A stretch of 25,241 nt of DNA, taken from positions 1 to 25,241 of the IMG/VR virus record IMGVR_UViG_3300025732_000247; one strand, written 5' to 3'. The stretch's first letter is position 1. The number at the start of each line of letters is the position of its first letter. Shown here piece after piece: positions 219 to 20,649 of the stretch. The notes under the pieces were generated by a model, which was not told where the DNA came from, did not search any database, and saw only the letters and a program-made list of their open reading frames with translations. Source of the stretch: a virus. A program made the position numbers and the translations under genes.

Positions 219-545
219 ATGAGAACTTTTCAAGAGTTTATGATAATCGCTGAGGGTATGTCTCTCAAAGATTTCAAAGCAAACCGCAGAACTCTCAAAC
301 GTAGAGAATCTTCTGCTGATGCTAAGAAGAGAGGTCATGTAGGTAAGGAATGGTACAACAGTGGTAGAACCTATTCTCCCGATGAAGCAAAGAGAATGCG
401 TTCAAAACTAGATGATGAAGAAAGACGCACAAGACATCGTAGTTCTGTAGATCCTGATAGTGAAGATGATAGTTCATTCTCAGCATCAAAAACAAAAAAT
501 CCTAAGAAACTGCGTAAGCAAAAGGCAATGGGTGAACTGGGATGA
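219..545 (+). CDS. Small basic protein with a T4 internal-protein-like N-terminus
   Basis: This 108-residue protein is highly charged, with many Arg, Lys, Asp, Glu and Ser residues, and no predicted membrane segment. It begins MRTFQEFMIIAEG. That resembles the capsid-targeting leader of T4 internal head proteins (M-K-T-Y-x-E-F-I-x-E-A) and contains I-A-E|G, which fits the (L/I)-x-E|(A/G) site of the T4 prohead protease. The basic, low-complexity body would suit a DNA-associated internal head protein. A CTAAATA late motif lies 21 bases upstream. It overlaps the next gene by ATGA (542-545), so the two are probably translationally coupled. The function is inferred; no catalytic domain is seen. 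Confidence 0.75.
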   Translation: MRTFQEFMIIAEGMSLKDFKANRRTLKRRESSADAKKRGHVGKEWYNSGRTYSPDEAKRMRSKLDDEERRTRHRSSVDPDSEDDSSFSASKTKNPKKLRKQKAMGELG

Positions 546-6092: not shown

Positions 6093-6526
6093 CTACTACG
6101 GTAGAACCTACTGTTCAATGGTCACAGGACCAAATGGTAGAGGTAATTCTTAATGAACCTGATGACTTTTTAAAAGTTCGTGAAACTTTGACTCGTATCG
6201 GAGTTGCTTCTAGAAAGGAGAAAAAACTCTATCAATCCTGTCATATTCTACATAAACAGGGTAGATACTTCATTGTTCACTTTAAGGAACTGTTTGCTCT
6301 TGATGGCAAACATGCTAACCTAACCGTGAATGATGTTCAGAGACGTAATCGTATTGTTCGTCTTCTTGCAGATTGGGGACTAATTACGGTCGTTAAGGAA
6401 GATGCTGTAACCGATATCGCACCACTCAATCAAATCAAAGTTCTTGCTTACAAGGACAAAGGTGACTGGATTTTGGAACAGAAGTATAATATTGGTAAGA
6501 AAGGAAAAACTCAAGAAGCAGAATAA
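6089..6526 (+). CDS. regA: RegA translational repressor
   Basis: The 145-residue protein is a RegA homologue, slightly longer than T4 RegA (122 residues). Recognisable parts are V-E-V-I-L-N-E-P-D-D-F-L-K-V-R-E-T-L-T-R-I-G-V-A-S at about 18-42, the S-C-H-I-L-H-K-Q-G-R-Y-F-I-V-H-F-K-E segment near 50-67, and the R-R-N-R-I-V-R-L-L-A-D-W-G-L region near 85-98. RegA binds translation-initiation regions of early mRNAs, including those of its own operon in T4. A strong GGAGG lies just before the ATG. The stop codon is embedded in an AATAAATA late-like motif, then comes a hairpin and a terminator at 6575-6610. Confidence 0.93.
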   Translation: MTTTVEPTVQWSQDQMVEVILNEPDDFLKVRETLTRIGVASRKEKKLYQSCHILHKQGRYFIVHFKELFALDGKHANLTVNDVQRRNRIVRLLADWGLITVVKEDAVTDIAPLNQIKVLAYKDKGDWILEQKYNIGKKGKTQEAE

Positions 6527-6529
6527 ATA
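6522..6529 (+). promoter_or_regulatory. AATAAATA late-promoter-like motif at the regA stop codon
   Basis: This differs from the T4 late box TATAAATA in one base and contains the regA stop codon (6524-6526). The predicted start is near 6535, where a small hairpin begins. It may drive a short RNA ending at the 6575-6610 terminator. It could also be no more than a chance run of A and T. Confidence 0.3.
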
Positions 6530-6534
6530 ATCCT

Positions 6535-6612
6535 GTGCCATTCGTGCGGCACTCTACAAAAGTCGGAACACCCTAAAAAGAGGTTGGGTTTTTACCCCTC
6601 CTCTTTTTTTGT
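6535..6612 (+). ncRNA. Candidate short non-coding RNA downstream of regA
   Basis: A late-like box (6522-6529) precedes a hairpin with GTGCC (6535-6539) pairing GGCAC (6548-6552). About 20 unpaired bases follow, then the 6575-6610 terminator. The segment has no open frame. It could be a ~75-base late RNA or just the 3' UTR of the regA operon. Confidence 0.25.
6575..6610 (+). terminator. Intrinsic terminator of the gp45-regA cluster
   Basis: AAAGAGG (6577-6583) pairs with CCTCTTT (6600-6606), with an inner GGG/CCC pairing around a T-rich loop, followed by T residues to 6610. It separates the replication cluster from hsp20. Confidence 0.85.
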
Positions 6613-6618
6613 ATCTTG

Positions 6619-6624
6619 TATAAT
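6619..6624 (+). promoter_or_regulatory. TATAAT -10 box upstream of hsp20
   Basis: A perfect TATAAT lies nine bases after the terminator T-tract and 62 bases before the hsp20 ATG. No -35 box is seen at the usual distance, as with the box before cobS. The leader between would be about 55 bases. Confidence 0.45.
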
Positions 6625-6685
6625 TAGTAGTGGATGCCGTAAGGGTCCACACAAAACAAACTCGCTTTTTTAAGGAGCTACCACA

Positions 6686-7117
6686 ATGAACATCGCAAGA
6701 TATAGTGCTGCGGATCTTCCTGCTTTAATGGATAAGATTACAAAAAACAGCATTGGAATGGACGAGTACTTTGATCGTCTGTTTAACCTTCATGAAACTA
6801 CAACAAACTACCCTCCATATAACTTGGTGCAAATAAATAATGTGGAATCTCACTTGGAAATTGCATTAGCGGGATTTAAGAAAGGAGAGGTTTATGTTTT
6901 CACAGAGTATGGAAAACTTTTTGTCGAAGGACAAAAAGAAGATACAGAGTCGGAACGGACGTTTATCCACAAGGGAGTGGCTAGCAGAAGTTTTAAACGA
7001 GCGTGGACTTTATCCGACGACACAGAAGTTAGGGAAGTTGTATTCGAAGACGGACTTCTACGGATCGTACTTGGGAAAATAGTTCCGGAACATCACGCAC
7101 GTAAGGACTATCTCTAA
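6686..7117 (+). CDS. hsp20: Hsp20-family small heat-shock protein
   Basis: The 143-residue protein has an alpha-crystallin-type domain at about residues 43-130. It begins Y-P-P-Y-N-L-V and includes the E-I-A-L-A-G-F strand, K-L-F-V-E-G-Q-K, an I-H-K-G-V-A-S-R-S-F-K-R stretch, the W-T-L-S-D-D loop and the hallmark D-G-L-L-R-I-V-L. Small heat-shock proteins hold unfolding proteins in an ATP-independent way; cyanophages commonly carry one. The C-terminal I-x-I motif of many cellular homologues is not clear here. AAGGAG (6672-6677) sets the start at 6686. The gene is alone between two terminators, so it is its own transcription unit. Late-like CTAAATA covers its stop codon. Confidence 0.88.
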   Translation: MNIARYSAADLPALMDKITKNSIGMDEYFDRLFNLHETTTNYPPYNLVQINNVESHLEIALAGFKKGEVYVFTEYGKLFVEGQKEDTESERTFIHKGVASRSFKRAWTLSDDTEVREVVFEDGLLRIVLGKIVPEHHARKDYL

Positions 7118-7120
7118 ATA
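7114..7120 (+). promoter_or_regulatory. CTAAATA late-promoter-like motif at the hsp20 stop codon
   Basis: It overlaps the hsp20 stop codon (7115-7117) and lies 21 bases before a terminator hairpin. No gene lies between, so it would drive only a very short RNA. It is either non-functional or part of the recurring stop/late-box/terminator pattern. Confidence 0.25.
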
Positions 7121-7140
7121 GAATTGAATATCGTCGGCGC

Positions 7141-7182
7141 GAGGAGCACCTGGCAAAATCCAGGTTGACTCCTCCTTTTTTT
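7141..7182 (+). terminator. Intrinsic terminator after hsp20
   Basis: GAGGAG (7141-7146) pairs with CTCCTC (7169-7174). An inner helix pairs ACCTGG (7148-7153) with CCAGGT (7160-7165) around a 6-base loop. A run of seven T residues follows at 7176-7182. The 3' part of the hairpin also holds the -35 box of the next promoter. Confidence 0.9.
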
Positions 7183-7193
7183 CTTGCTAAAAT
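7165..7193 (+). promoter_or_regulatory. Sigma70-type promoter for the gp43 cluster
   Basis: TTGACT (7165-7170) inside the terminator hairpin, a 17-bp spacer, then TAAAAT (7188-7193). The expected start, about 7200, falls on the GGAGG ribosome-binding sequence (7198-7202), so the leader to the ATG at 7215 would be very short. Confidence 0.6.
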
Positions 7194-7214
7194 AACTGGA
7201 GGTCGCAGTGTGTT

Positions 7215-7592
7215 ATGACGATTAAATTAATGCTTCTTAAGTCAGGTGAAGACTTGATTTCTGATGTCACCGAAATGGTTTATGGTGAGGAGGAGAATCA
7301 AAGGGTAGTTGGATATTACTTGGACAAACCGTGCTTGATTAGGATGCGTAATCCTAGTTTAGTTGAAGAAGGTGAAACAGAGAAAAAAACAGGTTTTGAA
7401 GTTTCTCTATATCCATGGCTTCCTCTTTCTGCTGATGAAAGAATTCCTGTTCCAGCAGACTGGTTGGTGACAATGGTAGAACCAACAGTTAAACTAAAAG
7501 AAATGTATGTAAAAGATGTAATGAATCATGGAAAAGAAACTAACGAAAATTCTGGCACTGATGAACAATCTGATTCTGATAAGTCAGATTGA
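7215..7592 (+). CDS. Small beta-rich protein, possibly Sm-like
   Basis: The 125-residue protein starts I-K-L-M-L-L-K-S-G-E-D-L-I-S-D-V, followed by V-V-G-Y-Y-L-D-K-P-C-L-I-R-M. This alternation resembles the strand order of Sm/Hfq-like folds, but it is weak evidence. A Y-P-W-L-P-L-S-A-D segment and an acidic, Ser/Asp-rich tail (residues 107-125) follow. GGAGG at 7198-7202 and the upstream promoter support this start. It is the first gene of the gp43 cluster and its end overlaps the next gene by 65 bases. The function is unknown to me. Confidence 0.72.
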   Translation: MTIKLMLLKSGEDLISDVTEMVYGEEENQRVVGYYLDKPCLIRMRNPSLVEEGETEKKTGFEVSLYPWLPLSADERIPVPADWLVTMVEPTVKLKEMYVKDVMNHGKETNENSGTDEQSDSDKSD

Positions 7593-7791
7593 AGAAGTTG
7601 GTGCTGACATTGGAGAACCTGATTGTAAATTAGTCAATCCATTTGTGGTCAGAAGTGACCAAACTTTAGAACCATTTCTTTGTGGATATACAAAGGAAAA
7701 AACTTTTATGATGAGTTCGGATAAGATTTTGACACTTGCTGATCCGACCCCAACTCTACTTGAAAAATATGAGGACTTGATTAAGGAATGA
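7528..7791 (+). CDS. Small conserved protein upstream of gp43, possibly Sm-like
   Basis: The 87-residue protein contains L-I-L-I-S-Q-I-E-E-V-G-A-D-I-G-E-P-D-C-K-L and later S-S-D-K-I-L-T-L-A-D-P. This strand pattern is again reminiscent of an Sm-like barrel. The start at 7528 overlaps the previous gene by 65 bases. An in-frame ATG at 7561 (M-N-N-L-I-L) is a credible alternative and neither has a good Shine-Dalgarno sequence. The end overlaps the gp43 ATG by four bases, so it is probably coupled to the polymerase. No function is assigned. Confidence 0.68.
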   Translation: MEKKLTKILALMNNLILISQIEEVGADIGEPDCKLVNPFVVRSDQTLEPFLCGYTKEKTFMMSSDKILTLADPTPTLLEKYEDLIKE

Positions 7792-10283
7792 GATTTTACA
7801 CTAATGTTCAGTTGATTGGAAATCAGTTTTTGGTTCGTGGAGTAGAGAATGGTAAGAGATTTGAAACAAGAGATGAGTTTTTTCCAACTCTTTTTGTAAA
7901 GACAAAAAAAGATTCCAAGTATAGAACATTAAGTGGCGAAGCAGTAGAACCCATCAATCCCGGAACTGTAAGGGATTGTCGTGAGTTCTACAAGAAATAT
8001 GATGAAGTTGCTGGATTTGAAATATTTGGTAACGACAGATATATTTGTCAGTATATTTCTGAGAAATATCCTGAAGATGAAATCAAGTTTGATATCAGTA
8101 AAATTAAACTTGTAACCCTAGATATTGAGGTTGCTTCGGAGGAAGGATTCCCTGATGTGGAGTCTTGCTCTGAAGAAATCCTTGCGATTACAATTCAGGA
8201 TTATACAACTAAAGAGATTACTACTTGGGGTGTTAAACCATTTAACAACAAGCAAAGTAATGTAACTTATCATCACTGTCCAAGTGAGTATGAGTTATTG
8301 AATCACTTCATCAACTATTGGATGGTTGACGTTCCCGATGTTGTGACTGGATGGAACATTCAGTTGTATGATATTCCTTATATTTGTAAGCGTCTGAATC
8401 GCGTTCTTGGTGAGAAAATCATGAAGCGTTTCTCTAACTGGGGACTTGTAACGGAAGGTGAGACTTATATTCAAGGGCGTAAGCACACAACATTTGATGT
8501 TGGTGGATTGACTCAACTTGATTATCTTGATCTTTATAAGAAGTTCACTTACAAAGCACAGGAATCATATCGTCTGGATTATATTGCTGAAGTAGAACTT
8601 GGACAGAAGAAACTGGACCACTCTGAGTTTGATACATTCAAAGACTTCTACACTCAAGGTTGGCAAAAGTTTATTGAGTATAACATCGTTGACGTGGAAC
8701 TTGTTGACCGTTTGGAAGACAAGATGAAACTGATTGAGCTTGCTCTGACGATGGCATATGACGCTAAAGTGAACTATGTTGATGTGTTCTATCAGGTTCG
8801 CATGTGGGATAATATTATCTACAACTATCTCAAGAAGCGTAATATTGTTATTCCTCCAAAGAATAAATCTCAGAAGAATGAAAAGTATGCTGGTGCCTAT
8901 GTAAAAGAACCGATTCCAGGTAAGTATGATTGGGTTGTAAACTTTGACCTTAATTCTCTGTATCCGCATTTGATTATGCAATACAATATTTCTCCAGAAA
9001 CTCTTGTGGATGAAAAACATCCCTCAGTTAATGTAGAAAAGATTTTGAATAAGAATCTTACTTTTGAGATGTATAAAGACTATGCTGTTTGTGCAAACGG
9101 AGCAATGTTCCGTAAAGACATTCGTGGATTTCTTCCTGAACTGATGGAGAAAATGTATCAAGATCGTGTCATCTTTAAGAAGAAGATGATTGAGGCAAAG
9201 AAACAATATGAAAAGACAAAGAACAAAGAACTTGTAAAAGAGATTGCTCGCTGTAATAATATTCAGATGGCAAAGAAGATTTCTCTTAACTCTGCTTATG
9301 GTGCCATCGGTAATCAATACTTTAGGTATTACAAACTTGAGAATGCGGAGGCAATTACTCTCAGCGGTCAGGTGTCTATCCGATGGATTGAAGGTAAAAT
9401 GAATTCTTATATGAATAAGGTTCTTAAAACTCAGGATGTTGATTATGTTATTGCTTCAGATACTGATTCCATTTATCTTAATATGGGTCCTTTGGTTGAA
9501 ACTGTATACAAAGGAAGAGAGAAAACTACTGAAAGCATTGTCGCGTTCCTTGATAAGGTCGCTTCGCTGGAACTTGAAAAGTATATTGAAAGTTCTTACC
9601 AAGAACTGGCTGAGTATGTGAATGCATATGACCAGAAGATGCAGATGAAGCGAGAGAATATTGCTGACCGTGGCATCTGGACTGCTAAGAAGCGTTATAT
9701 TCTTAATGTATGGGATAGCGAAGGTGTCCGATATGAGGAACCTAAACTGAAGATGATGGGCATTGAAGCAGTCAAATCTTCTACTCCTGCTCCTTGCCGC
9801 AAGATGATTAAGGATGCACTTAAACTTATGATGAGTGGAACTGAGGATGAAGTGATTGACTTTATTGAAAATGCTAGAAATGAGTTTAGAAAACTACCTC
9901 CAGAACAAATCTCATTTCCACGCTCTGCTTCTGATGTTCAAAAGTATCAATCTTCATCGGACATTTATATAAAAGGAACCCCTATCCATGTTCGTGGAGC
10001 ACTTCTGTTTAATCATTATATTAAACAGAACAAACTAACAAACAAATACTCTCTTATTCAAAATGGAGAGAAGATTAAGTTCATTTATCTGAAGAAACCA
10101 AATACTATTCATGAGAATATTATTTCCTTTATTCAAGAGTTTCCAAAGGAACTTAATCTTGACAAATACATAGACTATGAACTACAATTTGAGAAAGCAT
10201 TTCTAGAGCCACTCAAGATTATCCTTGATGCGATTGGGTGGTCTGTAGAAAAAACTGTAAACCTTGAATCATTTTTTGCTTGA
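7788..10283 (+). CDS. gp43: gp43 family B DNA polymerase
   Basis: The 831-residue replicative polymerase of T4 type has all the catalytic motifs. Exo I D-I-E at 112-114 matches the T4 numbering, Exo II is G-W-N-I-Q-L-Y-D (Asp195) and Exo III is Y-N-I-V-D (Asp302). Polymerase motif A is D-L-N-S-L-Y-P from 387, motif B is K-x3-N-S-A-Y-G at 497-504, and motif C is D-T-D-S at 558-561. It is shorter than T4 gp43 (898), as usual for cyanophages, and is intact, with no intein or intron. The C-terminus (N-L-E-S-F-F-A) has the hydrophobic, aromatic character of the clamp-binding tail that docks on gp45. The ATG overlaps the previous stop codon (ATGA) and the end overlaps the next ATG by one base. Confidence 0.97.
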   Translation: MRFYTNVQLIGNQFLVRGVENGKRFETRDEFFPTLFVKTKKDSKYRTLSGEAVEPINPGTVRDCREFYKKYDEVAGFEIFGNDRYICQYISEKYPEDEIKFDISKIKLVTLDIEVASEEGFPDVESCSEEILAITIQDYTTKEITTWGVKPFNNKQSNVTYHHCPSEYELLNHFINYWMVDVPDVVTGWNIQLYDIPYICKRLNRVLGEKIMKRFSNWGLVTEGETYIQGRKHTTFDVGGLTQLDYLDLYKKFTYKAQESYRLDYIAEVELGQKKLDHSEFDTFKDFYTQGWQKFIEYNIVDVELVDRLEDKMKLIELALTMAYDAKVNYVDVFYQVRMWDNIIYNYLKKRNIVIPPKNKSQKNEKYAGAYVKEPIPGKYDWVVNFDLNSLYPHLIMQYNISPETLVDEKHPSVNVEKILNKNLTFEMYKDYAVCANGAMFRKDIRGFLPELMEKMYQDRVIFKKKMIEAKKQYEKTKNKELVKEIARCNNIQMAKKISLNSAYGAIGNQYFRYYKLENAEAITLSGQVSIRWIEGKMNSYMNKVLKTQDVDYVIASDTDSIYLNMGPLVETVYKGREKTTESIVAFLDKVASLELEKYIESSYQELAEYVNAYDQKMQMKRENIADRGIWTAKKRYILNVWDSEGVRYEEPKLKMMGIEAVKSSTPAPCRKMIKDALKLMMSGTEDEVIDFIENARNEFRKLPPEQISFPRSASDVQKYQSSSDIYIKGTPIHVRGALLFNHYIKQNKLTNKYSLIQNGEKIKFIYLKKPNTIHENIISFIQEFPKELNLDKYIDYELQFEKAFLEPLKIILDAIGWSVEKTVNLESFFA

Positions 10284-10447
10284 TGGACTTGCCTATTAAT
10301 GACGAAGAACTGAATACTATTATTAGTGCTATGCATCTTGGCGGTGATGTAGCACTTTATCAAAAATTAAAACTGGTAAAAGAACTCAAAGAACAGGGTT
10401 TACCTTATAAAAAAATACTTCGTGAACAATACGGGATGGTAGCGTGA
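10283..10447 (+). CDS. 54-residue hypothetical protein between gp43 and uvsX
   Basis: A short frame joins gp43 and uvsX, with one-base TGATG overlaps at both ends (10281-10285 and 10445-10449). The 54 residues are mostly helical and charged: an acidic start ([10 protein letters not shown]), a hydrophobic middle (I-I-S-A-M-H-L), then Lys-rich [11 protein letters not shown] and a Y-K-K-I-L-R-E-Q-Y end. The exact fit into the coupled operon supports translation. No family recognised. Confidence 0.7.
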
Positions 10448-11451
10448 TGGATTTTCTTAAAGATATTGTAAAAGAGATTGGTGATGACTTCACCAAATTA
10501 GCATCAGACATTGATGAGACTGAAACTTATGTTGACACAGGTTCGTACATTTTTAATGCACTGGTTTCAGGTAGCGTATTTGGTGGTGTATCTGGGAATA
10601 AGATTACTGCTATTGCTGGAGAGTCTTCTACTGGAAAGACTTTCTTTTCTCTCGCTGTGGTTAAGAATTTTCTTGATACTAACCCCGATGGTTATTGCCT
10701 CTACTTTGACACTGAGGCTGCTATTACTAAATCACTGATTGAATCTCGTGGAATTGATACTACTCGTTTGGTTGTTGTCAATGTTGTTACTATTGAGGAG
10801 TTCCGTACAAAAGCACTCAAAGCCGTAGATATATACCTAAAGTCACCAGTAGAAGAACGCAAACCTTGTATGTTTGTGTTGGATTCTTTGGGAATGCTAT
10901 CTACAAGTAAAGAAATCAATGATGCACTGAATGAAAAAGAAGTGAGGGATATGACCAAATCCCAACTTATTAAAGGTGCTTTCCGAATGCTCACACTTAA
11001 ACTAGGACAGGCAAATGTACCGCTCATTGTCACAAATCATACATACGATGTCATCGGAGCTTATGTACCAACAAAAGAAATGGGCGGAGGTTCTGGACTC
11101 AAGTACGCAGCAAGTACGATCATCTATCTCAGCAAAAAGAAAGAAAAAGATGGAACAGAAGTGGTCGGCAATATTATCAAAGCTAAGACTGCTAAATCGC
11201 GTTTGAGTAAGGAGAATAAACAAGTTGAAGTTCGTCTTTATTATGACGAGCGTGGACTTGATCGTTATTATGGTCTTCTTGAACTTGGTGAGATTGGCGG
11301 TCTCTGGAAGAATGTCGCAGGACGTTATGAGATTGATGGTAAAAAGATTTATGCCAAACAAATTCTCAAGGAACCTGAAGTATATTTCACTCAAGAAGTA
11401 ATGCAACAACTTGATGAGATTGCTAAGCAGGAGTTCAGTTACGGTTCGTGA
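10447..11451 (+). CDS. uvsX: UvsX RecA-like recombinase
   Basis: The 334-residue protein is the T4-type RecA homologue. Walker A G-E-S-S-T-G-K-T is at 58-65, a D-T-E segment at 88-90, and Walker B F-V-L-D-S-L-G at 143-149. A V-T-N-H-T-Y motif (sensor/L2-border region) near residues 195-200 and a [12 protein letters not shown] loop follow. It polymerises on single-stranded DNA and catalyses strand exchange for recombination-dependent replication and repair. The ATG at 10447 was chosen over an in-frame GTG three bases upstream because it follows the preceding stop codon in the TGATG arrangement typical here. The stop codon overlaps a GTG start (GTGA). Confidence 0.95.
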
Positions 11452-11990
11452 TAAAGATTCTGAAGACTGGAATAAATGTAAAGAAAGTTGTAGATCAACT
11501 TGAAAAATATCCACAAGATTGGGACCATCAGAAACATCTGAAGGATTCTCAGTCCTTAGTTGATAGAGGATTTGCTGACTTGCCAGTAAGTGCTCTTCAA
11601 CTTATAATGGGTGGTGTCAAGAAAAAGGAAGATTTTGTTGGTGATTCTGAAATCAATATCAAAACTCCAGCATATCAACATCATAGTGAAATAAGGAAGA
11701 TTATTCGTAAAGAGTTTGGTAATAGAGAATTACATCGCTGCGGATTTCTTTCTCTTCCTGTTGATGAGATTGTTGGAGCACATATTGATGAAGGAACTTA
11801 TTATCAAACCAGAGATAGATATCATCTTTCTATTTTAGGAACTTATCAGTATTTTTGCGGAACTGATACTACTATTGTTGAACCAGGAACTCTTCTTTGG
11901 TTTAATAATAAATTACCTCATGGAACCGTTAATATCGGTGATGAGACCCGAATAACATTTGTATTTGATATGCCCCATGGACAAAGTTGA
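11448..11990 (+). CDS. Aspartyl/asparaginyl beta-hydroxylase-like Fe(II)/2-oxoglutarate oxygenase
   Basis: The 180-residue protein carries the jelly-roll oxygenase signature. Fe(II) ligands are H112-x-D114 (G-A-H-I-D-E-G) and H158 (L-P-H-G-T-V), and R168 ten residues later would bind the 2-oxoglutarate carboxylate. D-R-Y-H-L-S-I-L near 123-130 and E-P-G-T-L-L-W-F near 145-152 fit the aspartyl/asparaginyl hydroxylase family. The substrate is unknown; related enzymes hydroxylate protein side chains. The GTG start at 11448 overlaps the uvsX stop codon, and no upstream ATG is available. The 3' end overlaps gp41 by 14 bases. An oxygenase inside the recombination/helicase operon is odd. Confidence 0.8.
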
Positions 11991-13353
11991 AATTCTGATT
12001 CTTCGTAATCTTCTTCATAATGAAGCATATGTTCGCAAAGTTATTCCATTTATTAAATCGGAATACTTTGAGGATACAAATCAAAAGATAGTATTTGAAG
12101 AAATTTTAAAATTTGTTCAGGAATATAACCAACCAGCGACAAAAGAAGTTCTTTGTATTGAAGTAGAAAAGCGTCAAGACATTAATGATACTTCTTTCAA
12201 AGAAATCACTCAGATGATTAGTTATCTGGATGATGAGGCGGCAGAGTTTAATTGGTTAGTTGATACTACTGAAAAGTGGTGTCGTGATCGTGCTATTTAC
12301 CTTGCACTTATGGAGTCAATTCATATTGCTGATGGTAATGATGATAAGAAGAATCGTGATGCTATTCCTAGCATTCTTTCTGATGCTCTAGCAGTATCTT
12401 TTGATACTCACATTGGACACGATTATCTGTTAGATTACGAAGAACGTTATGAATCCTACCATAGAAAGGAAGAGAAGATTGAATTTGATCTTGAATACTT
12501 TAACAAAATCACAAAAGGTGGTTTACCTAATAAGACTCTCAATATCGCTCTTGCTGGTACGGGTGTCGGCAAAAGTCTCTTTATGTGCCATGTTGCTTCT
12601 TCCGTCTTATTGCAAGGCAGGAACGTTCTCTACATCACTCTTGAAATGGCGGAGGAACGAATTGCTGAAAGAATTGACGCAAACCTTTTAAACGTTCCCA
12701 TCCAAGATATTGGAGAACTTCCAAAACAGATGTTTGAAAGTAAGGTTACAAATCTTGCTAAGAAAACTCAAGGACAACTGATTATTAAAGAGTATCCTAC
12801 TGCGTCCGCCCACTCAGGACACTTTAAAGCACTTCTAAATGAACTTGCATTGAAGAAATCATTCCGTCCAGATATTATCTTTATTGATTATCTAAACATC
12901 TGTGCTTCTTCAAGGTATCGTGGTGGTAGCAATATCAACTCTTATACCTTTGTGAAGTCAATCGCAGAAGAACTTCGTGGACTTGCCGTGGAGTTTAATG
13001 TTCCTATTGTAAGTGCTACTCAGACAACTCGTTCTGGATATGGATCTTCTGATGTGGAACTTACTGATACTTCTGAAAGTTTTGGTCTGCCTGCTACTGC
13101 TGACCTTATGTTTGCCCTTATTTCTACAGAAGAACTTGAAGGTCTTGGTCAAATTTTGGTCAAGCAACTTAAGAACCGATATAATGACCCTACCATTCAT
13201 AAGCGTTTCGTGATTGGTATTGATAGGGCTAAGATGCGTCTTTACGACTGCGAACAATCTGCTCAACAAGATATCCTTGACAATGGAAAAGATGAAGAGT
13301 ATGATTATGAAGAAAAGAAACCTAAGAAATCATTTGAGGGATTTAAATTTTGA
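11977..13353 (+). CDS. gp41: gp41 replicative DNA helicase (DnaB-like)
   Basis: The 458-residue protein is the T4 gp41/DnaB-type hexameric 5'-3' helicase. An N-terminal helical domain (about 1-130) is followed by the RecA-like core. Walker A A-G-T-G-V-G-K-S ends at Ser200, the T-L-E-M-A-E-E segment is near 225, and Walker B I-I-F-I-D-Y-L-N-I has Asp304. S-A-T-Q-T-T-R-S-G near residue 347 is the H3-type motif. The C-terminus is acidic and then basic (E-E-K-K-P-K-K-S-F-E-G-F). It works with gp61 primase as the primosome. The ATG at 11977 ([13 protein letters not shown]) restores the family N-terminus; an upstream in-frame TTG at 11959 was rejected. Confidence 0.95.
   Translation: MDKVEILILRNLLHNEAYVRKVIPFIKSEYFEDTNQKIVFEEILKFVQEYNQPATKEVLCIEVEKRQDINDTSFKEITQMISYLDDEAAEFNWLVDTTEKWCRDRAIYLALMESIHIADGNDDKKNRDAIPSILSDALAVSFDTHIGHDYLLDYEERYESYHRKEEKIEFDLEYFNKITKGGLPNKTLNIALAGTGVGKSLFMCHVASSVLLQGRNVLYITLEMAEERIAERIDANLLNVPIQDIGELPKQMFESKVTNLAKKTQGQLIIKEYPTASAHSGHFKALLNELALKKSFRPDIIFIDYLNICASSRYRGGSNINSYTFVKSIAEELRGLAVEFNVPIVSATQTTRSGYGSSDVELTDTSESFGLPATADLMFALISTEELEGLGQILVKQLKNRYNDPTIHKRFVIGIDRAKMRLYDCEQSAQQDILDNGKDEEYDYEEKKPKKSFEGFKF
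13277..13305 (+). promoter_or_regulatory. Sigma70-type promoter for mazG
   Basis: TTGACA (13277-13282), a 17-bp spacer, then TATGAT (13300-13305), inside the 3' end of gp41. The expected start is near 13312, 41 bases before the mazG ATG. The same spacer length is seen in five other candidates here. Confidence 0.55.
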
Positions 13354-13772
13354 TGACTGAAAATAAAGTTATTGATAGCAATAAGTATATTGAGTTTGTT
13401 CGCCAAACTACAAGTCCTGCTAGTAGCGACTTCGCACAACTTCTGTCGCGTATGACCGAACTTGAAGCAGCAAATGATGCTGATGTTCCTCGTCTTCTGA
13501 CTGCTGCTCTTGGTATTAGTGCTGAAGCAGGTGAGTTCACTGAAGTTGTGAAAAAGATTATCCTTCAAGGTAAAGCTTATACTGAAGAAAATGTCTTTCA
13601 TATGAAGCGTGAACTTGGAGATATCTGCTGGTATATCGCACAAGCGTGTATGGCACTTGATACCAACTTCCATGAGATTATGGAAATGAACTATGAGAAA
13701 CTGAGTGCTCGTTATCCTGAAGGGGCATTTGATGTATATCGTTCTGAAAATCGTGTGGAGGGAGACCTGTGA
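13353..13772 (+). CDS. mazG: MazG-like nucleotide pyrophosphohydrolase
   Basis: The 139-residue protein is a single-domain MazG homologue, a common cyanophage gene. The metal-binding pattern is E58-A-G-E61 and E87-L-G-D90, in the all-alpha NTP pyrophosphohydrolase layout. It is followed by N-Y-E-K-L-S-A-R-Y-P near 113-122. Such enzymes cleave (d)NTPs to monophosphates and pyrophosphate. Phage versions have been proposed to alter ppGpp or to recycle host nucleotides, though reported cyanophage enzymes prefer dNTPs. The ATG at 13353 overlaps the gp41 stop codon (TGATG). A candidate promoter lies 48 bases upstream, inside gp41. Confidence 0.9.
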   Translation: MTENKVIDSNKYIEFVRQTTSPASSDFAQLLSRMTELEAANDADVPRLLTAALGISAEAGEFTEVVKKIILQGKAYTEENVFHMKRELGDICWYIAQACMALDTNFHEIMEMNYEKLSARYPEGAFDVYRSENRVEGDL

Positions 13773-13939
13773 GTAAAGTAAGCGTAGAAATGTCTGTCCG
13801 TGCTGCAGCAGCAGTCCGTCAAGTTTTGTTTGATGCACAGAAAGGATATACTACTGGACCTTCTGTTCCAGAGCGTGTCTTTGAAATTCGTGAAGTCATT
13901 ACTGACCTTGACGACGCAATTAGTCAAGTAGTTGAATAA
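13769..13939 (+). CDS. 56-residue hypothetical protein (GTG start)
   Basis: A GTG start overlaps the mazG stop codon (GTGA, 13769-13772) with a very strong GGAGGGAG sequence at 13757-13764. The 56 residues are helical and Ala/Val rich (V-R-A-A-A-A-V-R-Q-V), with an acidic end (I-T-D-L-D-D-A-I-S-Q). The ribosome-binding site and exact coupling support it. It is the last gene of the gp43-mazG unit, just before a terminator. No family recognised. Confidence 0.72.
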   Translation: MSKVSVEMSVRAAAAVRQVLFDAQKGYTTGPSVPERVFEIREVITDLDDAISQVVE

Positions 13940-13944
13940 CTGTC

Positions 13945-13966
13945 AAGACCCGCAAGGGTTTTTTTT
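13945..13966 (+). terminator. Intrinsic terminator of the gp43-mazG unit
   Basis: ACCC (13948-13951) pairs with GGGT (13956-13959) around a GCAA (GNRA) tetraloop. It can be extended by A-T and G-T pairs, and a long T-tract runs to 13966. The last T is also the first base of a TATAAATA late box. Confidence 0.85.
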
Positions 13967-13973
13967 ATAAATA
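13966..13973 (+). promoter_or_regulatory. T4-type late promoter TATAAATA
   Basis: A perfect match to the T4 late consensus, 27 bases before the ATG at 14001 and fused to the preceding terminator T-tract. It marks the switch from the replication genes to the late island. Confidence 0.8.
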
Positions 13974-14000
13974 TCCTTAGAAGAATATAACGATTTTCTA

Positions 14001-15203
14001 ATGGATACCAAGCAACTTAGGGATTTGATGGAAGCATATTCTGAAGTTTATGCTCCAGAGCAACTTGATGAAGCATATTTGAGTGAAATTCCGACATCAA
14101 CGCAGATGGGTGGAAAACCTGCACAAGCAGCAAGACCACAACCAAGAGTAATGACTGCATTCGATGCTGGTGGTGGTAATGCAAGAGTTCGAGAATTAAT
14201 GCGTCAAGGAATTGGTGGTGTTGAAGCAAATAGAAGAGTCTCTACAACTGGTGAATATCTTCAAAGACAAGCAGCTACGAAAGCTGACGCATCTAGAAAT
14301 AGGTTTCCAACAGGACTTGCTGGTAGACCTGCTGGTAGTAATCCTCCCGCTAGACCTGCTGGTAGTAATCCTCCCGCTAGACCTGCTGGTAGTAATCCTC
14401 CCGCTAGACCTGCTGGTAGTAATCCTCCCGCTAGACCTGCTGGTAGTACTCCTCCCGCTAGACCTGCTGGTAGTAATCCTCCCGCTAGACCTGCTGGTAG
14501 TAATCCTCCCGCTAGACCTGCTGCTGCCCCCACAGGAGGAGTAGCAAAACCAACTCCAGCACCTTCAACTCCAGCAGAAAAACCATCTGCAATGGACCAG
14601 TGGGCAAAGGCAAATCCAAGACTTGCCCAAGCACAGCAGATTAGAAAGCAAGGTGGTTCTAGAGCAGAAGTAAATAAAGCACTCTATAATAAGGGAACAG
14701 CAGCTGCCACTTCAACCCCAACAGTTGTTAAGGCTGGATTTGATTTATTTGATGTTGTAAAGGGATATTTGATTGATGAGGGATTTGCTGAGACTGAGCA
14801 AGCAGCAATCGCTATTATGGCAAATATGAGTGAAGATTGGAAAACTACTATTATTGGTGAAGCATCAAGTAGAGATGAATTCACAAGAGCAGCTATTGCT
14901 CGTAATTCTGGTAGAAAGGGTGGAATTACATTTGAACCAGGACCAAACTGGGACCCCTCTGCTAATCGTGGAAGAGGTGCTCATTTAAATCCAAAGCAAA
15001 AGGAAAAGCAGCGTCGTAAAGCACTTCGTCAAGAAGAGTATATGGATGAAGCACAAGAGGCTCGCAATAACCCTGAGAAGTATGAAAGAGAGCAAAGCAA
15101 AAAATCTGCTCCTGTTCGTGGAGAAAGAACTCCTATGCCTCCAAGAGGAGATAAGCGTAGAGAGGACTTTGAGAAGTGGTATGCTAAGCAGATGGGTCGC
15201 TGA
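14001..15203 (+). CDS. Late modular protein with 9-residue proline-rich repeats
   Basis: This 400-residue late protein has four parts. The N-terminus (1-30) is M-D-T-K-Q-L-R-D-L-M-E-A-Y with L-D-E|A, a possible prohead-protease site. A linker follows. Residues 109-171 are seven near-identical R-P-A-G-S-N-P-P-A units (one has T for N) plus a degenerate eighth. A C-terminal module (about 250-290) contains V-V-K-G-Y-L-I-D-E-G-F and I-M-A-N-M-S-E-D-W-K, a pattern I know from cyanophage structural proteins. The last ~110 residues are highly basic. Further (L/I)-x-E|(A/G) sites occur (I-D-E|G, I-G-E|A). It is probably a virion or internal head protein driven by the TATAAATA box upstream. A terminator follows at 15228. 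Confidence 0.85.
   Translation: MDTKQLRDLMEAYSEVYAPEQLDEAYLSEIPTSTQMGGKPAQAARPQPRVMTAFDAGGGNARVRELMRQGIGGVEANRRVSTTGEYLQRQAATKADASRNRFPTGLAGRPAGSNPPARPAGSNPPARPAGSNPPARPAGSNPPARPAGSTPPARPAGSNPPARPAGSNPPARPAAAPTGGVAKPTPAPSTPAEKPSAMDQWAKANPRLAQAQQIRKQGGSRAEVNKALYNKGTAAATSTPTVVKAGFDLFDVVKGYLIDEGFAETEQAAIAIMANMSEDWKTTIIGEASSRDEFTRAAIARNSGRKGGITFEPGPNWDPSANRGRGAHLNPKQKEKQRRKALRQEEYMDEAQEARNNPEKYEREQSKKSAPVRGERTPMPPRGDKRREDFEKWYAKQMGR
14325..14513 (+). repeat. Seven tandem 27-bp repeats within a coding region
   Basis: Seven 27-base units encode R-P-A-G-S-N-P-P-A. The fifth unit differs by one base (AAT to ACT, Asn to Thr); the others look identical. Near-identity at synonymous positions points to recent expansion by slippage or recombination. 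Being a multiple of three, copy-number change keeps the frame. Confidence 0.95.
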
Positions 15204-15273: not shown

Positions 15274-15347
15274 GGGGATATAGCTCAGATTGGTAGAGCG
15301 CGGTCTTTGCAAGGCTGATGTCAGGAGTTCGAGTCTCCTTATCTCCA
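15274..15347 (+). tRNA. tRNA-Ala (anticodon TGC)
   Basis: A full cloverleaf can be drawn. The acceptor stem GGGGATA pairs with TATCTCC (one G-T pair), the D arm is GCTC/GAGC, and the anticodon stem CGGTC/GGCTG encloses a TTTGCAA loop with anticodon TGC. The T arm is AGGAG-TTCGAGT-CTCCT. The discriminator base is A and the 3' CCA is not encoded. It would read GCA and other Ala codons. It lies in the middle of the late island among alanine-rich genes but has an early-type promoter. A CTAAATA late box follows three bases after its 3' end. Confidence 0.96.
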
Positions 15348-15373: not shown

Positions 15374-16513
15374 ATGTCAAAGGCAGTTAATTTAGGATCT
15401 GTGATGGAGGGAATATTTGCCATCGCAGTTGGTTTGATAATGTGTGAGAGTGATGCTCCTAGTAGAAAACTTAGTGTTGGAAATGTAAATTCTATTCGTA
15501 GACAAGTTGGTGATTCTATGTACACTCGTGCCGGATTTACTAAAGTTCTTTTTAGGGGGAAACAATTTAGATTAAAAACAAAAGGTTCACAACCTGATTA
15601 TGTTCCGGATTTTGTAACCGTAACTTTAAAAGTTAGTCTAAAAGAAGGGGAAGTATCTAGTGCTTTTGGTAAAAAATATTTTGATAATACGAAAGAATCT
15701 GTAATACAAAGTCTAATTTCTCAAGTTGTAAATTCATCTACAAAATATAAAAGAGATTTACGACAAGCGCAAGATCAATATTTGCTCAATAATAAACCTG
15801 AAAAAGTAGATATTGTTATCGTCGCGGATGGTGTTGGTGGAGAATTGTCTGGAGGGGATTTGAAAGGAGATGTTGCTGTAAATATTACGATTAATGGAAC
15901 TCCAATTATAAACAGGAATTTAAATTTTTCTTTAAAGGCAGGAAAAACTCCAAGTAAAACAATATCTAATGAAAGTCCTTATAGATCTATGGTTAGAATT
16001 AATGAAACTTTTAAGCTTGGTGTTGATACTAAACAATATTCTTTTTTGGATGGGCAAGCGAGAACACCAAAAGAAAAATATGAAAAGGTGAAATATATTA
16101 CAATGTTTTATAATCAAGTTCTTGATAGGTTAGTTGAATCTTTTAAAGTTGGTGCTGGATCTGCTAAAGCGTGGGATTTTTTAAAAAAAGCTGCTTTTGG
16201 GAAAGACTATGCTCAAGTTGTTTCTATCGGAACTGGTGCTACTTATGAATCTAGTATTGAATACATAGATGCTTTGCAGAAAAGATATCCAATTTTAATT
16301 GCTGAGAGAGCACCTGGAAAAAATGGACCAAATGTTAAATTTATCATAAAAGAAATTGATAAACCTCTGTTTCAGATAAGATTTAAAAATAGATCAAAAA
16401 TTCTTGGTCCTGAAGAGGCATCTATTTCTGAGTTAAAAATGATGATAGAAACTGAAAAAATATTCAAACAACCTTCAAATTGGGATCCAGAAGTTGGTAA
16501 TATTGGTGTTTAA
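15374..16513 (+). CDS. Unidentified late protein with a weak PD-(D/E)XK nuclease-like pattern
   Basis: I do not firmly recognise this 379-residue protein. It has no membrane segment or low-complexity regions, so it looks like a globular enzyme. The central part reads K-V-D-I-V-I-V, then L-K-G-D166-V-A-V-N-I-T-I, and about 20 residues later N-F-S186-L-K188-A-G-K. This spacing resembles the D...(E/S)-x-K core of restriction-like nucleases. A K-P-L-F-Q-I-R-F-K-N-R segment occurs near residue 330. The match is suggestive only. The gene looks visibly richer in A/T than its neighbours, which may mean recent acquisition. The start at 15374 was chosen because the longer frame runs back into the tRNA. 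It has its own late box. Confidence 0.75.
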   Translation: MSKAVNLGSVMEGIFAIAVGLIMCESDAPSRKLSVGNVNSIRRQVGDSMYTRAGFTKVLFRGKQFRLKTKGSQPDYVPDFVTVTLKVSLKEGEVSSAFGKKYFDNTKESVIQSLISQVVNSSTKYKRDLRQAQDQYLLNNKPEKVDIVIVADGVGGELSGGDLKGDVAVNITINGTPIINRNLNFSLKAGKTPSKTISNESPYRSMVRINETFKLGVDTKQYSFLDGQARTPKEKYEKVKYITMFYNQVLDRLVESFKVGAGSAKAWDFLKKAAFGKDYAQVVSIGTGATYESSIEYIDALQKRYPILIAERAPGKNGPNVKFIIKEIDKPLFQIRFKNRSKILGPEEASISELKMMIETEKIFKQPSNWDPEVGNIGV

Positions 16514-16554: not shown

Positions 16555-17859
16555 ATGAAAAACTTTTTCCAATTTTTGTCTGAGGCAACCCAGTCGCAAG
16601 CAGCAATGCAGGCGAAGAAACTTGGATTGTCTGGAGATGGTCACGGTGGATGGGTTGATCGTAGTGGAAAAGTTGTAGCCAGAACAGAAGACGGCAAACT
16701 TAAATTCACTGGTGAGAGGAAGGCAAAGGGTAAAGAAGAACCTACTGCTGAACCAAAGAAAGCAACTACACCACAACAACCTCAAGCGGCAGCACCTGCC
16801 CCACAAGCAGAACCTCAACAAGCACAAGCAGCATCGCAAGAAGCACAACCTGGTGAGGAACCAGCACCAACTTTAACAGTAGTATTTGGTCGCTTTAATC
16901 CTCCAACAATTGGGCATGAAAAACTTTTAAAATCTGCTGAAAAAGCATCTGCTGGTGGAGACTTAAAAATATATCCATCAAGAACTCAAGACCCTAAAAA
17001 GAATCCTTTAGACCCTGACACAAAAATTTCCTATATGAGAAAGATGTTCCCTGAGTTTGGGGAAAGAATTATTAATGACTATAAGATGGCAACTATATTT
17101 GATGTTCTTAGTGCAGCAGATCAAGATGGATATGGTAATGTAAATATTGTCGTTGGATCTGACCGTCAAGCAGAGTTTGAAAATCTTGCACAAAAATATA
17201 ATGGAAACCTTTATAACTTTGATTTAATTCGTGTTATCTCTGCTGGTGTAAGAGACGCTGATGCTGAGGGTGTTGAGGGAATGTCTGCATCAAAAATGAG
17301 AAAAGCAGTTACTGATAATGACTTTAATTCTTTCCGTAGAGGAACTCCTAAAACTTTAGATGATGGAGAAACACAAACTCTCTTTGATGCGGTTCGCCAA
17401 GGAATGGGTGCTAAAAAGGTAAAGGTTAAAAAAGAAAGTTTTGGTCTTTGGGAAATCGCTCCAAAATATGATATGGAGACTTTGCGTGAAAACTACATCA
17501 ATGGAAACATTTTTAATATAGGTGATATTGTTCAGAACTTAAACACTGGACTAATTGGTGAAGTAATGCGTAGAGGAACCAATTATCTCATCTGTGTTGC
17601 CGAGGAAGGATATATGTTCAAGTCTTGGATTAAAGACTTGATGGAATATGATGAAAAAACAATGAATAGAAAGATGAGACTGCCAGGAAAACCAAATACA
17701 TTAGTTGGAACCACTGGTTATTTCAAATACGCTGTTGATATGACCCCTGGATTTGAGAAGGGTGAGAAGACAAACCTTCAACCAGGTGCTAAACCATATA
17801 AAGGATACACGGTTTCAAATGTGAGAGAATTCCTAAATAAGTATAAGGTAAAGAAATAG
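16555..17859 (+). CDS. Late protein with a cytidylyltransferase/NMNAT-like nucleotidyltransferase domain
   Basis: The 434-residue protein is mosaic. Residues 1-11 (MKNFFQFLSEA) resemble T4 capsid-targeting leaders with L-S-E|A cleavage. Residues 13-55 form a module (Q-A-A-M-Q-A-K-K-L-G-L, G-D-G-H-G-G-W) that I associate with cyanophage structural proteins. Residues 60-105 are an Ala/Gln/Pro linker. The enzyme domain (about 106-290) has G-R-F-N-P-P-T-I-G-H at 112-121, the HIGH-type nucleotide-binding motif, and S-A-S-K-M-R at 244-249, corresponding to the I-S-S-T-x-x-R motif. Such enzymes join a nucleotide to a phosphate, as in NAD, CoA or CDP-alcohol synthesis. The substrate cannot be read here. 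The C-terminal ~130 residues (G-T-N-Y-L-I-C-V, M-F-K-S-W-I-K-D) form a further module. Confidence 0.88.
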   Translation: MKNFFQFLSEATQSQAAMQAKKLGLSGDGHGGWVDRSGKVVARTEDGKLKFTGERKAKGKEEPTAEPKKATTPQQPQAAAPAPQAEPQQAQAASQEAQPGEEPAPTLTVVFGRFNPPTIGHEKLLKSAEKASAGGDLKIYPSRTQDPKKNPLDPDTKISYMRKMFPEFGERIINDYKMATIFDVLSAADQDGYGNVNIVVGSDRQAEFENLAQKYNGNLYNFDLIRVISAGVRDADAEGVEGMSASKMRKAVTDNDFNSFRRGTPKTLDDGETQTLFDAVRQGMGAKKVKVKKESFGLWEIAPKYDMETLRENYINGNIFNIGDIVQNLNTGLIGEVMRRGTNYLICVAEEGYMFKSWIKDLMEYDEKTMNRKMRLPGKPNTLVGTTGYFKYAVDMTPGFEKGEKTNLQPGAKPYKGYTVSNVREFLNKYKVKK

Positions 17860-17869
17860 TAAGTTTACA

Positions 17870-20245
17870 ATGTCTATTAATCCTCTGAATGATATCTCCA
17901 AGGTATATCTGGAGCAGATTGCCGAAGCTTCTGTAAAGGAAAGAGCGGCAAAGGCAGTTGATCATCAAAGAAAAGGAACTCACGGTGATGATGATGAGCT
18001 AGAGCAACTTCAAGGAGATGTTCAAAAGTCTATCAATAAATTGAAGAAGAGAAGAGTAACAAGAGCATCAGCATCTCTTGCCGCAAGAAGAGTTCAGGGA
18101 GATGTAGAAAGGTCGAATAATTACGGTCCTCAGCGTCCCAAACCAGGAACAGTTACTGGTCGTCGTATCGAAGAACCAGAACCAACTGGATCAAAACCAA
18201 AAGGTTATCGCACTGAAGAAATTGGGATTAATGAGGCAAAGAAGAGAAAGGTAAAGCGTTGGTGGGATGATGATGGTGATGGTATTGGATATGAGAAAGG
18301 TGAAGTTTCTGGTAAGTTTAAGAGAAAGAAAGTAAAAGAATCATCCGATTATGACCCCATGGATGATGATGAGTTTGACCATGATGAAGCAGAAGAAAAT
18401 AGAGGAGTATCTGGAAAGAATAATCCTAAGGGTGGTAAAGCATTAGGTAAGAAAAAGAAAGGGATGAAGGAAGGTTTCTCAAACTGGAGACAAGATCTTG
18501 TAGAGATCGTCGCAACTGATGACGAAGATCAGAAAAAAATAGACGTAAAGAAAAAAATAAACAACAAAATTAAAACCTCAGCAATGGGTGGTGGTATCAA
18601 ACTAGGTGAAGCAGTTGAACAGATTGGTGGAACCCTCATTGAAATGGTTCAGATTGATAACATTCTTGACGACTTCACTGATTATGAAATTGACTTACTC
18701 TCCGATTCATTAATCGAAAAAGTAGTTGAAGAAGTTTTCTATAACTATCTTGAGGAAGGATATGATGCTGAAGAGATTGAAGATTATATCTGTGAGTCTA
18801 TTGATATCTCACTAAGTATTCTCAATGAAGCAAAAGTAACCTTTGGTCACGATACTCCTAATACTGAAAAGAAAGAAGGAGTTCTTCAAAAAATCAAAGG
18901 TGCTGTTAAGAAGGTAGGAAAGGCAGTTGCTCGTGGAGTTGGTTATGCTGCTGGTGCTGCTGTAAGAGGAGCAAAGGCAGTTGGTAGAGAAGCAAAATCT
19001 GGATATGAAAGAGGTAGAAGTGGATCTTCCTCTGGAGAAACTTCAAGATCTTCAGCATCCTCAAGATCTTCAGCACCCTCAACATCTTCTTCTAGTGATT
19101 CTGGAAGTGAAGGTGGTGAAAAGAAACCTGGTATTCTCTCAAGAGTTGCTTCTAAACTCAAGAAAGGACTTAAGAAAGCAGTTGCTAAAGGGGCAAGAGC
19201 AGTTTCCAGAGGAGCAAGAAATGTTGCTCGCAAGATGGAAGGTGGAGAAACCAAGAAAGCAGAAGCACCAAAAGCAGCACCTAAGAAGGCAGAAAAACCC
19301 GCCGACCCTTGGGGAGAACCTACAACTCCACCAAAAGCAAAGGCAAAACCAAAAGCATCCACTAAGAAAACTACAGCACCAAAAGCAAAAGCACCAGCTA
19401 AGAAAAAGAAGACGAGTAAGTTAGATGACCTTCTTGCTACGGTAAGAAGTGAAAGTGTTTGGATTAATGAAATGCCCTATCAAGTTTATGGTTCTCCTGA
19501 TGGTAAGAAAGAAAAGAAGATTGGTAAACCAGTAAAGAGTAAAAAGTATGCTGACGCAAGAGCAGCAGAACTAGAAGATACTCATAAAGCAACTGGTGGG
19601 CAGTATCGCTCTCAGTATGTCAAGAATTCTTTTGAACCCAAAGGTGAGTTGGTTGATGAGAAGACTTTAACTGATGCTGAAATGAAAAAGCGTGAAGAGA
19701 TTATTAAGTCTATGAAGGGTAAGGCAGAAGATTTTGAAAGAAGATATCCTGGTCGTGGTAGAGAAGTGATGTATGCCACTGCTACAAAGATGGCAAAGAG
19801 AATAGAAGAACAAGCACTTGATGAAAATATTTTAAGTGGAATTGTTGATAAAATTAAAGGTAGAAAGGAAATTGGTAGAACTGGAAGTGGTGGAAAAATT
19901 TACGCACCAACAAAACCAAAACCATCCACCGCCAAGTATCCATCATCACCTAAACCAGCTGCTGCTAGACCAACTGGAAGTGCTGCTGTTCAAGCAGTGA
20001 AAGATGACCCTTGGACTAAAGGTGCTATCTCAAGAGATGATGTAATGAGAGCAAGACAAGATATGAGAGCTGCTAGAGGAACCTCTCCAAAACCAACCTC
20101 TTCTAAACCAACTTCTTCTAAGCCAAGTAGAGGTGGAACATCATCATTATCAAACGCATCTTCATCTCCATCTAGTGTAACTAAAAAATATCAAGTCGGT
20201 GGATCTAGAGGTTATGGTATTTCTGGCATTAAACTAGCAGACTAG
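17870..20245 (+). CDS. Large basic modular late protein (probable internal/structural virion protein)
   Basis: The 791-residue protein is assembled from modules seen in cyanophage structural proteins. The N-terminus ends in Q-I-A-E|A (residues 17-20), a possible prohead-protease site. W-W-D-D-D-G-D-G-I-G-Y-E at 131-142 has a Ca-binding-loop look. An F-S-N-W-R-Q-D-L segment lies near 203, and an acidic helical region around 255-320 ends I-L-N-E|A. Lys/Ala/Gly-rich helices lie at about 334-378, and a second, similar one at about 416-457. Ser-rich and Lys/Ala/Pro-rich linkers follow, then an S-K-K-Y-A-D-A-R region near 560. Many (L/I)-x-E|(A/G) sites occur. No catalytic domain is seen. It starts 11 bases after the nucleotidyltransferase gene and is probably cotranscribed. 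The very basic composition suits DNA contact inside the capsid. Confidence 0.85.
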   Translation: MSINPLNDISKVYLEQIAEASVKERAAKAVDHQRKGTHGDDDELEQLQGDVQKSINKLKKRRVTRASASLAARRVQGDVERSNNYGPQRPKPGTVTGRRIEEPEPTGSKPKGYRTEEIGINEAKKRKVKRWWDDDGDGIGYEKGEVSGKFKRKKVKESSDYDPMDDDEFDHDEAEENRGVSGKNNPKGGKALGKKKKGMKEGFSNWRQDLVEIVATDDEDQKKIDVKKKINNKIKTSAMGGGIKLGEAVEQIGGTLIEMVQIDNILDDFTDYEIDLLSDSLIEKVVEEVFYNYLEEGYDAEEIEDYICESIDISLSILNEAKVTFGHDTPNTEKKEGVLQKIKGAVKKVGKAVARGVGYAAGAAVRGAKAVGREAKSGYERGRSGSSSGETSRSSASSRSSAPSTSSSSDSGSEGGEKKPGILSRVASKLKKGLKKAVAKGARAVSRGARNVARKMEGGETKKAEAPKAAPKKAEKPADPWGEPTTPPKAKAKPKASTKKTTAPKAKAPAKKKKTSKLDDLLATVRSESVWINEMPYQVYGSPDGKKEKKIGKPVKSKKYADARAAELEDTHKATGGQYRSQYVKNSFEPKGELVDEKTLTDAEMKKREEIIKSMKGKAEDFERRYPGRGREVMYATATKMAKRIEEQALDENILSGIVDKIKGRKEIGRTGSGGKIYAPTKPKPSTAKYPSSPKPAAARPTGSAAVQAVKDDPWTKGAISRDDVMRARQDMRAARGTSPKPTSSKPTSSKPSRGGTSSLSNASSSPSSVTKKYQVGGSRGYGISGIKLAD

Positions 20246-20635: not shown

Positions 20636-20649
20636 GGTCTCTCTTTTTT
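20618..20649 (+). terminator. Intrinsic terminator after the small late genes
   Basis: AAGAGAGGCC (20618-20627) pairs with GGTCTCTCTT (20636-20645, one G-T pair) around an 8-base loop that contains the upstream stop codon. T residues run to 20649. It is fused to the TATAAATA box that follows. Confidence 0.88.

Follow-up and report, generated by a model that had tools for sequence, protein, structure and literature searches.

What kind of protein carries a tandem repeat in which nearly every copy is the same in DNA, and what would change in that protein as the number of copies changes? This question is raised by the window analyzed here, a 25,241-nucleotide stretch of viral DNA, in which seven 27-bp units stand head to tail within a 400-amino-acid open reading frame (ORF). 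The best account, to which we give a probability of roughly 0.58, is that a young in-frame minisatellite lies in a basic linker, predicted to be disordered, within a late protein of mosaic build that is most likely the precursor of internal head proteins. The repeat itself is an ordinary young minisatellite; the protein that hosts it is the more interesting result and, judged from its sequence, is apparently a mosaic version of the T4-type internal head proteins that has not been described before. The features of the locus are collected in Table 1.

Table 1. Features of the repeat gene and its surroundings, in window coordinates (an arrow marks a candidate cut)
Feature	Position	Strand	Basis
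Stand-alone cargo module after short CTS-like segment ending IAE↓G	219..545	+	same module in L075
T4-type late-promoter-like TATAAATA	13966..13973	+	shortly 5' of start codon
Mosaic protein, 400 aa, net charge +19	14001..15203	+	ORF; fragment and charge computation
Propeptide-like N-terminal segment, residues 1-11, LME↓A	14001..14033	+	motif in relatives
LDE↓A at residues 22-24, second candidate site for prohead protease	14064..14072	+	motif
N-terminal module, residues 25-107, partly helical (predicted)	14073..14321	+	model; relatives L084-L092
27-bp x 7 array RPAGSNPPA, A14449C in unit 5	14325..14513	+	Tandem Repeats Finder; model
Partial eighth unit and remaining Pro/Ala-rich basic linker	14514..14588	+	Tandem Repeats Finder; composition
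AMDQWAKANP module	14589..14738	+	kept in relatives, 3' of differing Pro/Ala linkers
Three-helix module, residues 247-287, ends IIGE↓A	14739..14861	+	41-sequence alignment; model, mean pLDDT 91.3
Basic module ASSRDEF...RQEEYMDE (+5)	14862..15050	+	sequence comparison; charge
C-terminal module AQEARNNPEKY...YAKQMGR (+5)	15051..15200	+	sequence comparison; charge
tRNA-Ala(TGC)	15274..15347	+	also 3' of syntenic gene in S-SCSM1
379-aa neighbor, counterpart of SSCSM1_90 (labeled virion protein)	15374..16513	+	position only
Cytidylyltransferase/NMNAT-like protein, T4-CTS-like N-terminus, LSE↓A at residue 10	16555..17859	+	PHROG 395; N-termini
791-aa basic neighbor at SSCSM1_92 position (labeled virion protein)	17870..20245	+	position

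The array and its copy number

An earlier note on this DNA had described seven near-identical units with one changed base in unit five, placed between the N-terminal part of the protein and its C-terminal modules, and both statements proved correct. Units 1 to 4, 6 and 7 are identical, while the A-to-C change in unit 5 replaces Asn with Thr; the array is in frame with the ORF and makes up residues 109 to 171 of its product. Tandem Repeats Finder reports 7.4 copies at 14324-14523 (98% matches, score 393), against a score of 80 for the next-best array in the window and a maximum of 46 when the codons of the repeat gene were shuffled 30 times. With near-identical units arranged head to tail and in frame, the array qualifies as an intragenic minisatellite. 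Since no synonymous differences are found among the seven copies, either the array is young or its units are kept alike by recombination; the unit is also missing from all relatives read, and the recent expansion that had been proposed is thereby supported. Upstream of the array stands a short near-repeat, CTTGCTGGTAG and then CCTGCTGGTAG, which by its sequence could have been the seed. Two ORFs lying over the array, 14212-14544 (+) and 14261-14533 (-), were rejected as separate genes; they are by-products, kept open only by a unit whose length is divisible by three.

When the unit was sought in other phage genomes, a DNA scan of IMG/VR for the exact 27 bp matched one other contig, L082, and a peptide search of IMG/VR for the array returned L082 alone. 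Aligned along 8,171 bases (6299-14469), this sister contig and the window show 16 differences, of which 15 are clustered at 11483-11575 and the sixteenth is at 14449, where L082 has A and the window has C. It contains five plain units and then ends within the array. The A at 14449 means that the variant unit lies elsewhere in L082, that the base differs, or that the two assemblies resolved the array differently. As for the cluster (93 bp, within ORF 11448-11990), the L082 differences fall in nine synonymous and five nonsynonymous codons, a pattern as of an exchanged tract, or of two strains joined during assembly.

The further claim that copy number varies is supported indirectly: in a homologous linker the metagenome assemblies L014 and L015/L016 are one 42-bp unit apart, with zero other mismatches over approximately 1.7 kb. 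Copy-number turnover is thus real for homologous linkers of the same class. The count of seven was set by the assembler in a single virus contig, and short reads are poorly suited to resolving a 200-bp array of near-perfect copies. When an array approaches read length, assemblies often interrupt or shorten it, and L082 stops inside the array with a different base at the variant position. That both the count and the unit 5 variant arose in short-read assembly, and that the real array is longer, shorter or mixed, is a serious prospect, although somewhat short of an even chance: the window was assembled through the array, its variant unit is unique, and the one-unit indel between L014 and L015/L016 exists, albeit in data that are themselves assembled. 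This alternative concerns the count only and is compatible with our main reading.

A mosaic protein with modules ending in a protease-type motif

The repeat gene belongs to a mosaic family, present in T4-like cyanophages, with modules that vary in order and number; from IMG/VR, the best 80 of 141 related places were kept. Several contigs carry family genes in tandem, three at L076:1545-4370 and pairs in L006, L055, L056, L059, L069, L081 and L163. The N-terminal module of the window protein recurs in L084-L092 behind a different upstream segment. Likewise, the body of ORF 219-545 is 59% identical to residues 207 to 306 of the mosaic ORF in L075, and its cargo module, GMS[LM]KDFKANR..., follows directly after IAE in ORF 219-545 and after IME, the end of a three-helix module, in L075.

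In T4, according to PMC9026906, gp21, the prohead protease, cleaves behind L/I-x-E, and a short N-terminal targeting sequence brings internal proteins into the head; residues 4, 7, 8 and 10 of this sequence were found to matter, and it is removed at a gp21-type site. Motifs of this type abound in the mosaic family, where [ILV]xE[AGS] occurs 324 times in 26,208 residues, against 91 times in shuffled sequences. Near the N-terminus, [ILVMF]xE[AGSNI] is found in 77 of the 80 members that start with Met, mostly at residue 11. The LME of the window protein, at residues 9 to 11, accordingly has the form of a short propeptide ending in L/I-x-E; targeting residues of the IPIII type are absent in register at positions 4 and 7, which are K4 and R7.

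The distribution of the motif along the chain is more telling. We scored module ends for a motif within five residues in 213 distinct contexts and compared the result with 1000 random sets. [IL]xEA was near 34 of the 213 ends (random mean 9.0, largest of the 1000 sets 20), and [ILV]xE[AGS] was near 71, against 26.2 at random. E[AGS] lacking a hydrophobic P3 was not enriched at module ends (24/213 versus 24.6), and module starts gave weak enrichment (56/336 versus 42.5). The reversed motif was itself somewhat enriched at module ends (p 0.004; 18/213 versus 9.3), and part of the signal is therefore explained by helices with acidic ends.

Cyanophage S-SCSM1 provides a reference for such sites. 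In its gp23, LAE↓A aligns exactly under LTE↓A of T4 gp23, the site of the residue-65 cut (521 versus 456 residues in the mature form), and a protease and a scaffold are present, both labeled virion protein. The motif density per 100 residues is highest in the scaffold (2.89), followed by the protease (1.85) and SSCSM1_89 (1.24), and is at most 0.58 in the remaining 45 virion-labeled proteins. For the repeat protein it is 1.00; since the AAA-type enzyme ORF at 678 of the window reaches 1.08, density alone proves nothing. Nor is a single N-terminal motif diagnostic of virion proteins, as 4 of the 48 virion-labeled proteins of S-SCSM1 carry one versus 12 of its 201 other ORFs, which is no separation.

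The three-helix module is the best-predicted part of the protein. A fold search with it matched no PDB entry at E 0.001; among viral models, 11 matches had a probability of at least 0.98, all eight named ones being from cyanophages, and the top matches included the protein of S-SCSM1 labeled "virion protein" (E 1.5, TM-score 0.88). Searches of Pfam and PHROG with the window protein returned nothing at 0.001. In the open-access literature, we found no paper on capsid targeting sequences of cyanophages or on mosaic internal proteins that are cleaved in them, PMC9026906 being the one paper that mentions both cyanophages and a capsid targeting sequence; an open-access search for the T4 targeting peptide likewise gave no paper.

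A more far-reaching version of our account is possible and is offered tentatively. In this scenario, the protein would be a shuffling, cleavable polyprotein of T4-like cyanophages, in which short basic or helical cargo modules are joined at prohead-protease sites. The three-helix module and the N-terminal segment would serve for packaging, cutting would take place in the prohead, the pieces would leave the head along with the DNA, and the unstable cationic repeat would shift the charge by one Arg per copy.

Composition of the linker

What is kept among relatives is the type of linker, rich in Pro and Ala, while the repeat unit differs. Relatives that share the downstream AMDQWAKANP module have Pro/Ala-rich linkers built from other units, mostly with Lys in place of Arg, and those that share the upstream module (L084-L088) have AAKPAAKP-type linkers. 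A composition rule applied to 82 dereplicated family members (out of 199 ORFs) identified a Pro/Ala linker in 28, and all 28 linkers are net positive; together they hold 270 Lys and Arg versus 38 Asp and Glu among 2030 residues. Across the whole mosaic family, Asp and Glu make up 15.3%. In the AlphaFold model of the window protein, the linker has a pLDDT of about 38 to 43 and no secondary structure and is thus predicted to be disordered; with a 12-row alignment and a mean pLDDT of 55.9, only the contrast between the linker and the rest of this model is meaningful.

Each copy of the repeat contributes nine residues and one arginine. The earlier note had proposed that repeat number would tune spacer length; because each unit carries one Arg and all 28 linkers are net positive, charge is, on these compositions, an equally good candidate for what repeat number would change. 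Another possibility is that the repeat is a plain flexible spacer that does no more than fix how far apart the folded regions of a protein of unassigned role lie, its copy number drifting neutrally. The predicted disorder is in keeping with this, as is the retention of Pro/Ala composition among relatives whose units are wholly different. A neutral spacer, however, need not be net positive in every one of 28 linkers with almost no acidic residues, and the segments on both sides are small modules themselves, so we regard this explanation as rather unlikely.

Genomic context

In S-SCSM1, the gene between mazG and tRNA-Ala that adjoins the tRNA is SSCSM1_89, the syntenic counterpart of the repeat gene. 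Its product begins with MDSKTFNSLSE↓A, which is similar to the start of the window protein, and contains the three-helix module, here ending in ILDE↓A; SSCSM1_89 and the next four protein genes bear the label "virion protein" in the depositor's record. That record carries 48 such labels, and 45 proteins of S-SCSM1 were detected by mass spectrometry according to PMC9602691, in whose passages considered here ORF89 is not named. From gene order, the context points to the virion for the repeat protein. In phage Bellamy, mazG and tRNA-Ala stand without a gene between them, and the mosaic gene is therefore accessory. The annotated start of Bellamy gene 170, at 10049 of L173, cuts off a conserved CTS-like N-terminus that starts at 10001.

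The NMNAT-like neighbor follows the T4 pattern more closely. Its N-terminus, M-K-x-F-x-x-F-[LIV]-x-E-A, is conserved in 16 of 16 distinct relatives, and the copy in the window has F4 and F7, whereas the repeat protein keeps the cut site with residues 4 and 7 out of register. An NMNAT/cytidylyltransferase was detected in the virion proteome of S-SCSM1 (PMC9602691), and NMNAT-like proteins were detected in those of S-CREM2 (PMC10665884) and S-SZBM1 (PMC9146016). In PMC9146016, S-SZBM1_139, a basic protein beside NMNAT, is also among the virion proteins detected, and _141 to _143 are not listed. The product of 17870-20245 is long and basic with Lys/Ala/Pro-rich stretches, to be compared with S-SZBM1_139; its counterpart SSCSM1_92 does not have the N-terminal Glu site that is present in the window.

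With respect to timing, PMC2984593 gives late promoters of the form TATAAATA for T4 and NATAAATA for S-PM2 and reports the form in cyanophages. The window holds two matches to TATAAATA against a chance mean of 1.19, so that the count is not above chance, and the number of the broader ATAAATA in the window is not above chance either. The second match, at 20649, is shortly 5' of ORF 20690, and both sites precede putative virion genes. The position of TATAAATA before the repeat gene is suggestive of a late promoter, as far as sequence can tell.

These observations also bear on whether the protein is in the virion at all. Its modules might instead be linear binding motifs or peptides acting on the host, never present in the virion, with L/I-x-E↓A marking acidic helix ends favored for recombination. 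The enrichment of the reversed acidic motif and the undiagnostic nature of a lone N-terminal motif would fit such peptides; the virion label of SSCSM1_89, the cargo module standing directly after xxE in two unrelated contexts, and the late-promoter-like site before the gene all speak against them and leave this explanation improbable. A role in the tail fiber or in adsorption, with the repeat as a stalk that differs in length according to receptor access, is rejected as very improbable, given that the one weak hint, a PHROG tail-fiber profile match over a low-complexity stretch, has a chance-level E of 7.3, that no tail-fiber domain is found, that the locus lies in a mazG-tRNA-NMNAT cluster away from the tail genes, and that the protein has basic modules and prohead-protease-like junctions.

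A proposed model for a probable internal head protein with an unstable linker

Considering these data, we propose the following model for the preferred reading, that of an internal-head-protein precursor. First, the mosaic gene would be expressed late in infection by a T4-like cyanophage. The N-terminal segment ending in LME↓A and the three-helix module would hold the protein in the prohead core, where the prohead protease, a gp21 homolog, may cut between modules at L/I-x-E↓A, as the motifs suggest. The basic, partly unfolded pieces would then stay with the packaged DNA and perhaps be ejected. The largest predicted piece, residues 25 to 260 with a charge of +18, holds the repeat, and copy number would alter its length and charge. 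The internal proteins of T4 are described in PMC9026906 as basic, binding DNA at low salt, nonessential, and differing between phages; these traits fit a gene that is accessory, changes quickly and can accommodate an unstable repeat.

If this reading is true, many "hypothetical" mosaic genes of cyanophages could be read as internal head cargo. The ends of the cargo would be predictable from L/I-x-E↓A and could be checked in existing virion mass-spectrometry data, and the modules could be assayed on the host. The presence of NMNAT-like enzymes in cyanophage virions would be explained by a T4-like packaging tag.

Comparison with known systems

As a repeat, the array resembles intragenic minisatellites (VNTRs), which consist of in-frame near-identical units and whose copy number is expected to vary; what sets it apart is its place, a linker within what is probably a head protein. 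The linker, in turn, resembles histone-H1-like or KAAP-type tails, which combine Pro and Ala with Lys or Arg, are of low complexity, are predicted to be disordered, and are nearly free of acidic residues, as is the case here; it is distinguished from them by the use of Arg rather than Lys in this phage.

As a protein, the closest likeness is to T4 IPI, IPII, IPIII and Alt, with which the window protein shares a short N-terminal segment ending in L-x-E↓A, a basic character, and poor conservation between phages (PMC9026906 for the T4 side). Unlike these, it consists of several modules with several candidate sites per chain, its targeting residues 4 and 7 are out of register, it contains a repeat linker predicted to be disordered, and no match to the profile of a known family was found for it. 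The ejection proteins of giant phages (phiKZ, SPN3US and 201phi2-1), which the same source (PMC9026906) describes as packaged proteins that a gp21-like protease cleaves behind a Glu, are similar in that the window protein would be cut in the same way; the phiKZ motif, however, is S/A-x-E, and the giant-phage proteins are likened by description, not by sequence. Multiple candidate gp21 sites per chain are a trait shared with the T4 prohead core proteins gp22 and gp67, from which the window protein differs in being mosaic, accessory and basic, with modules that are shuffled.
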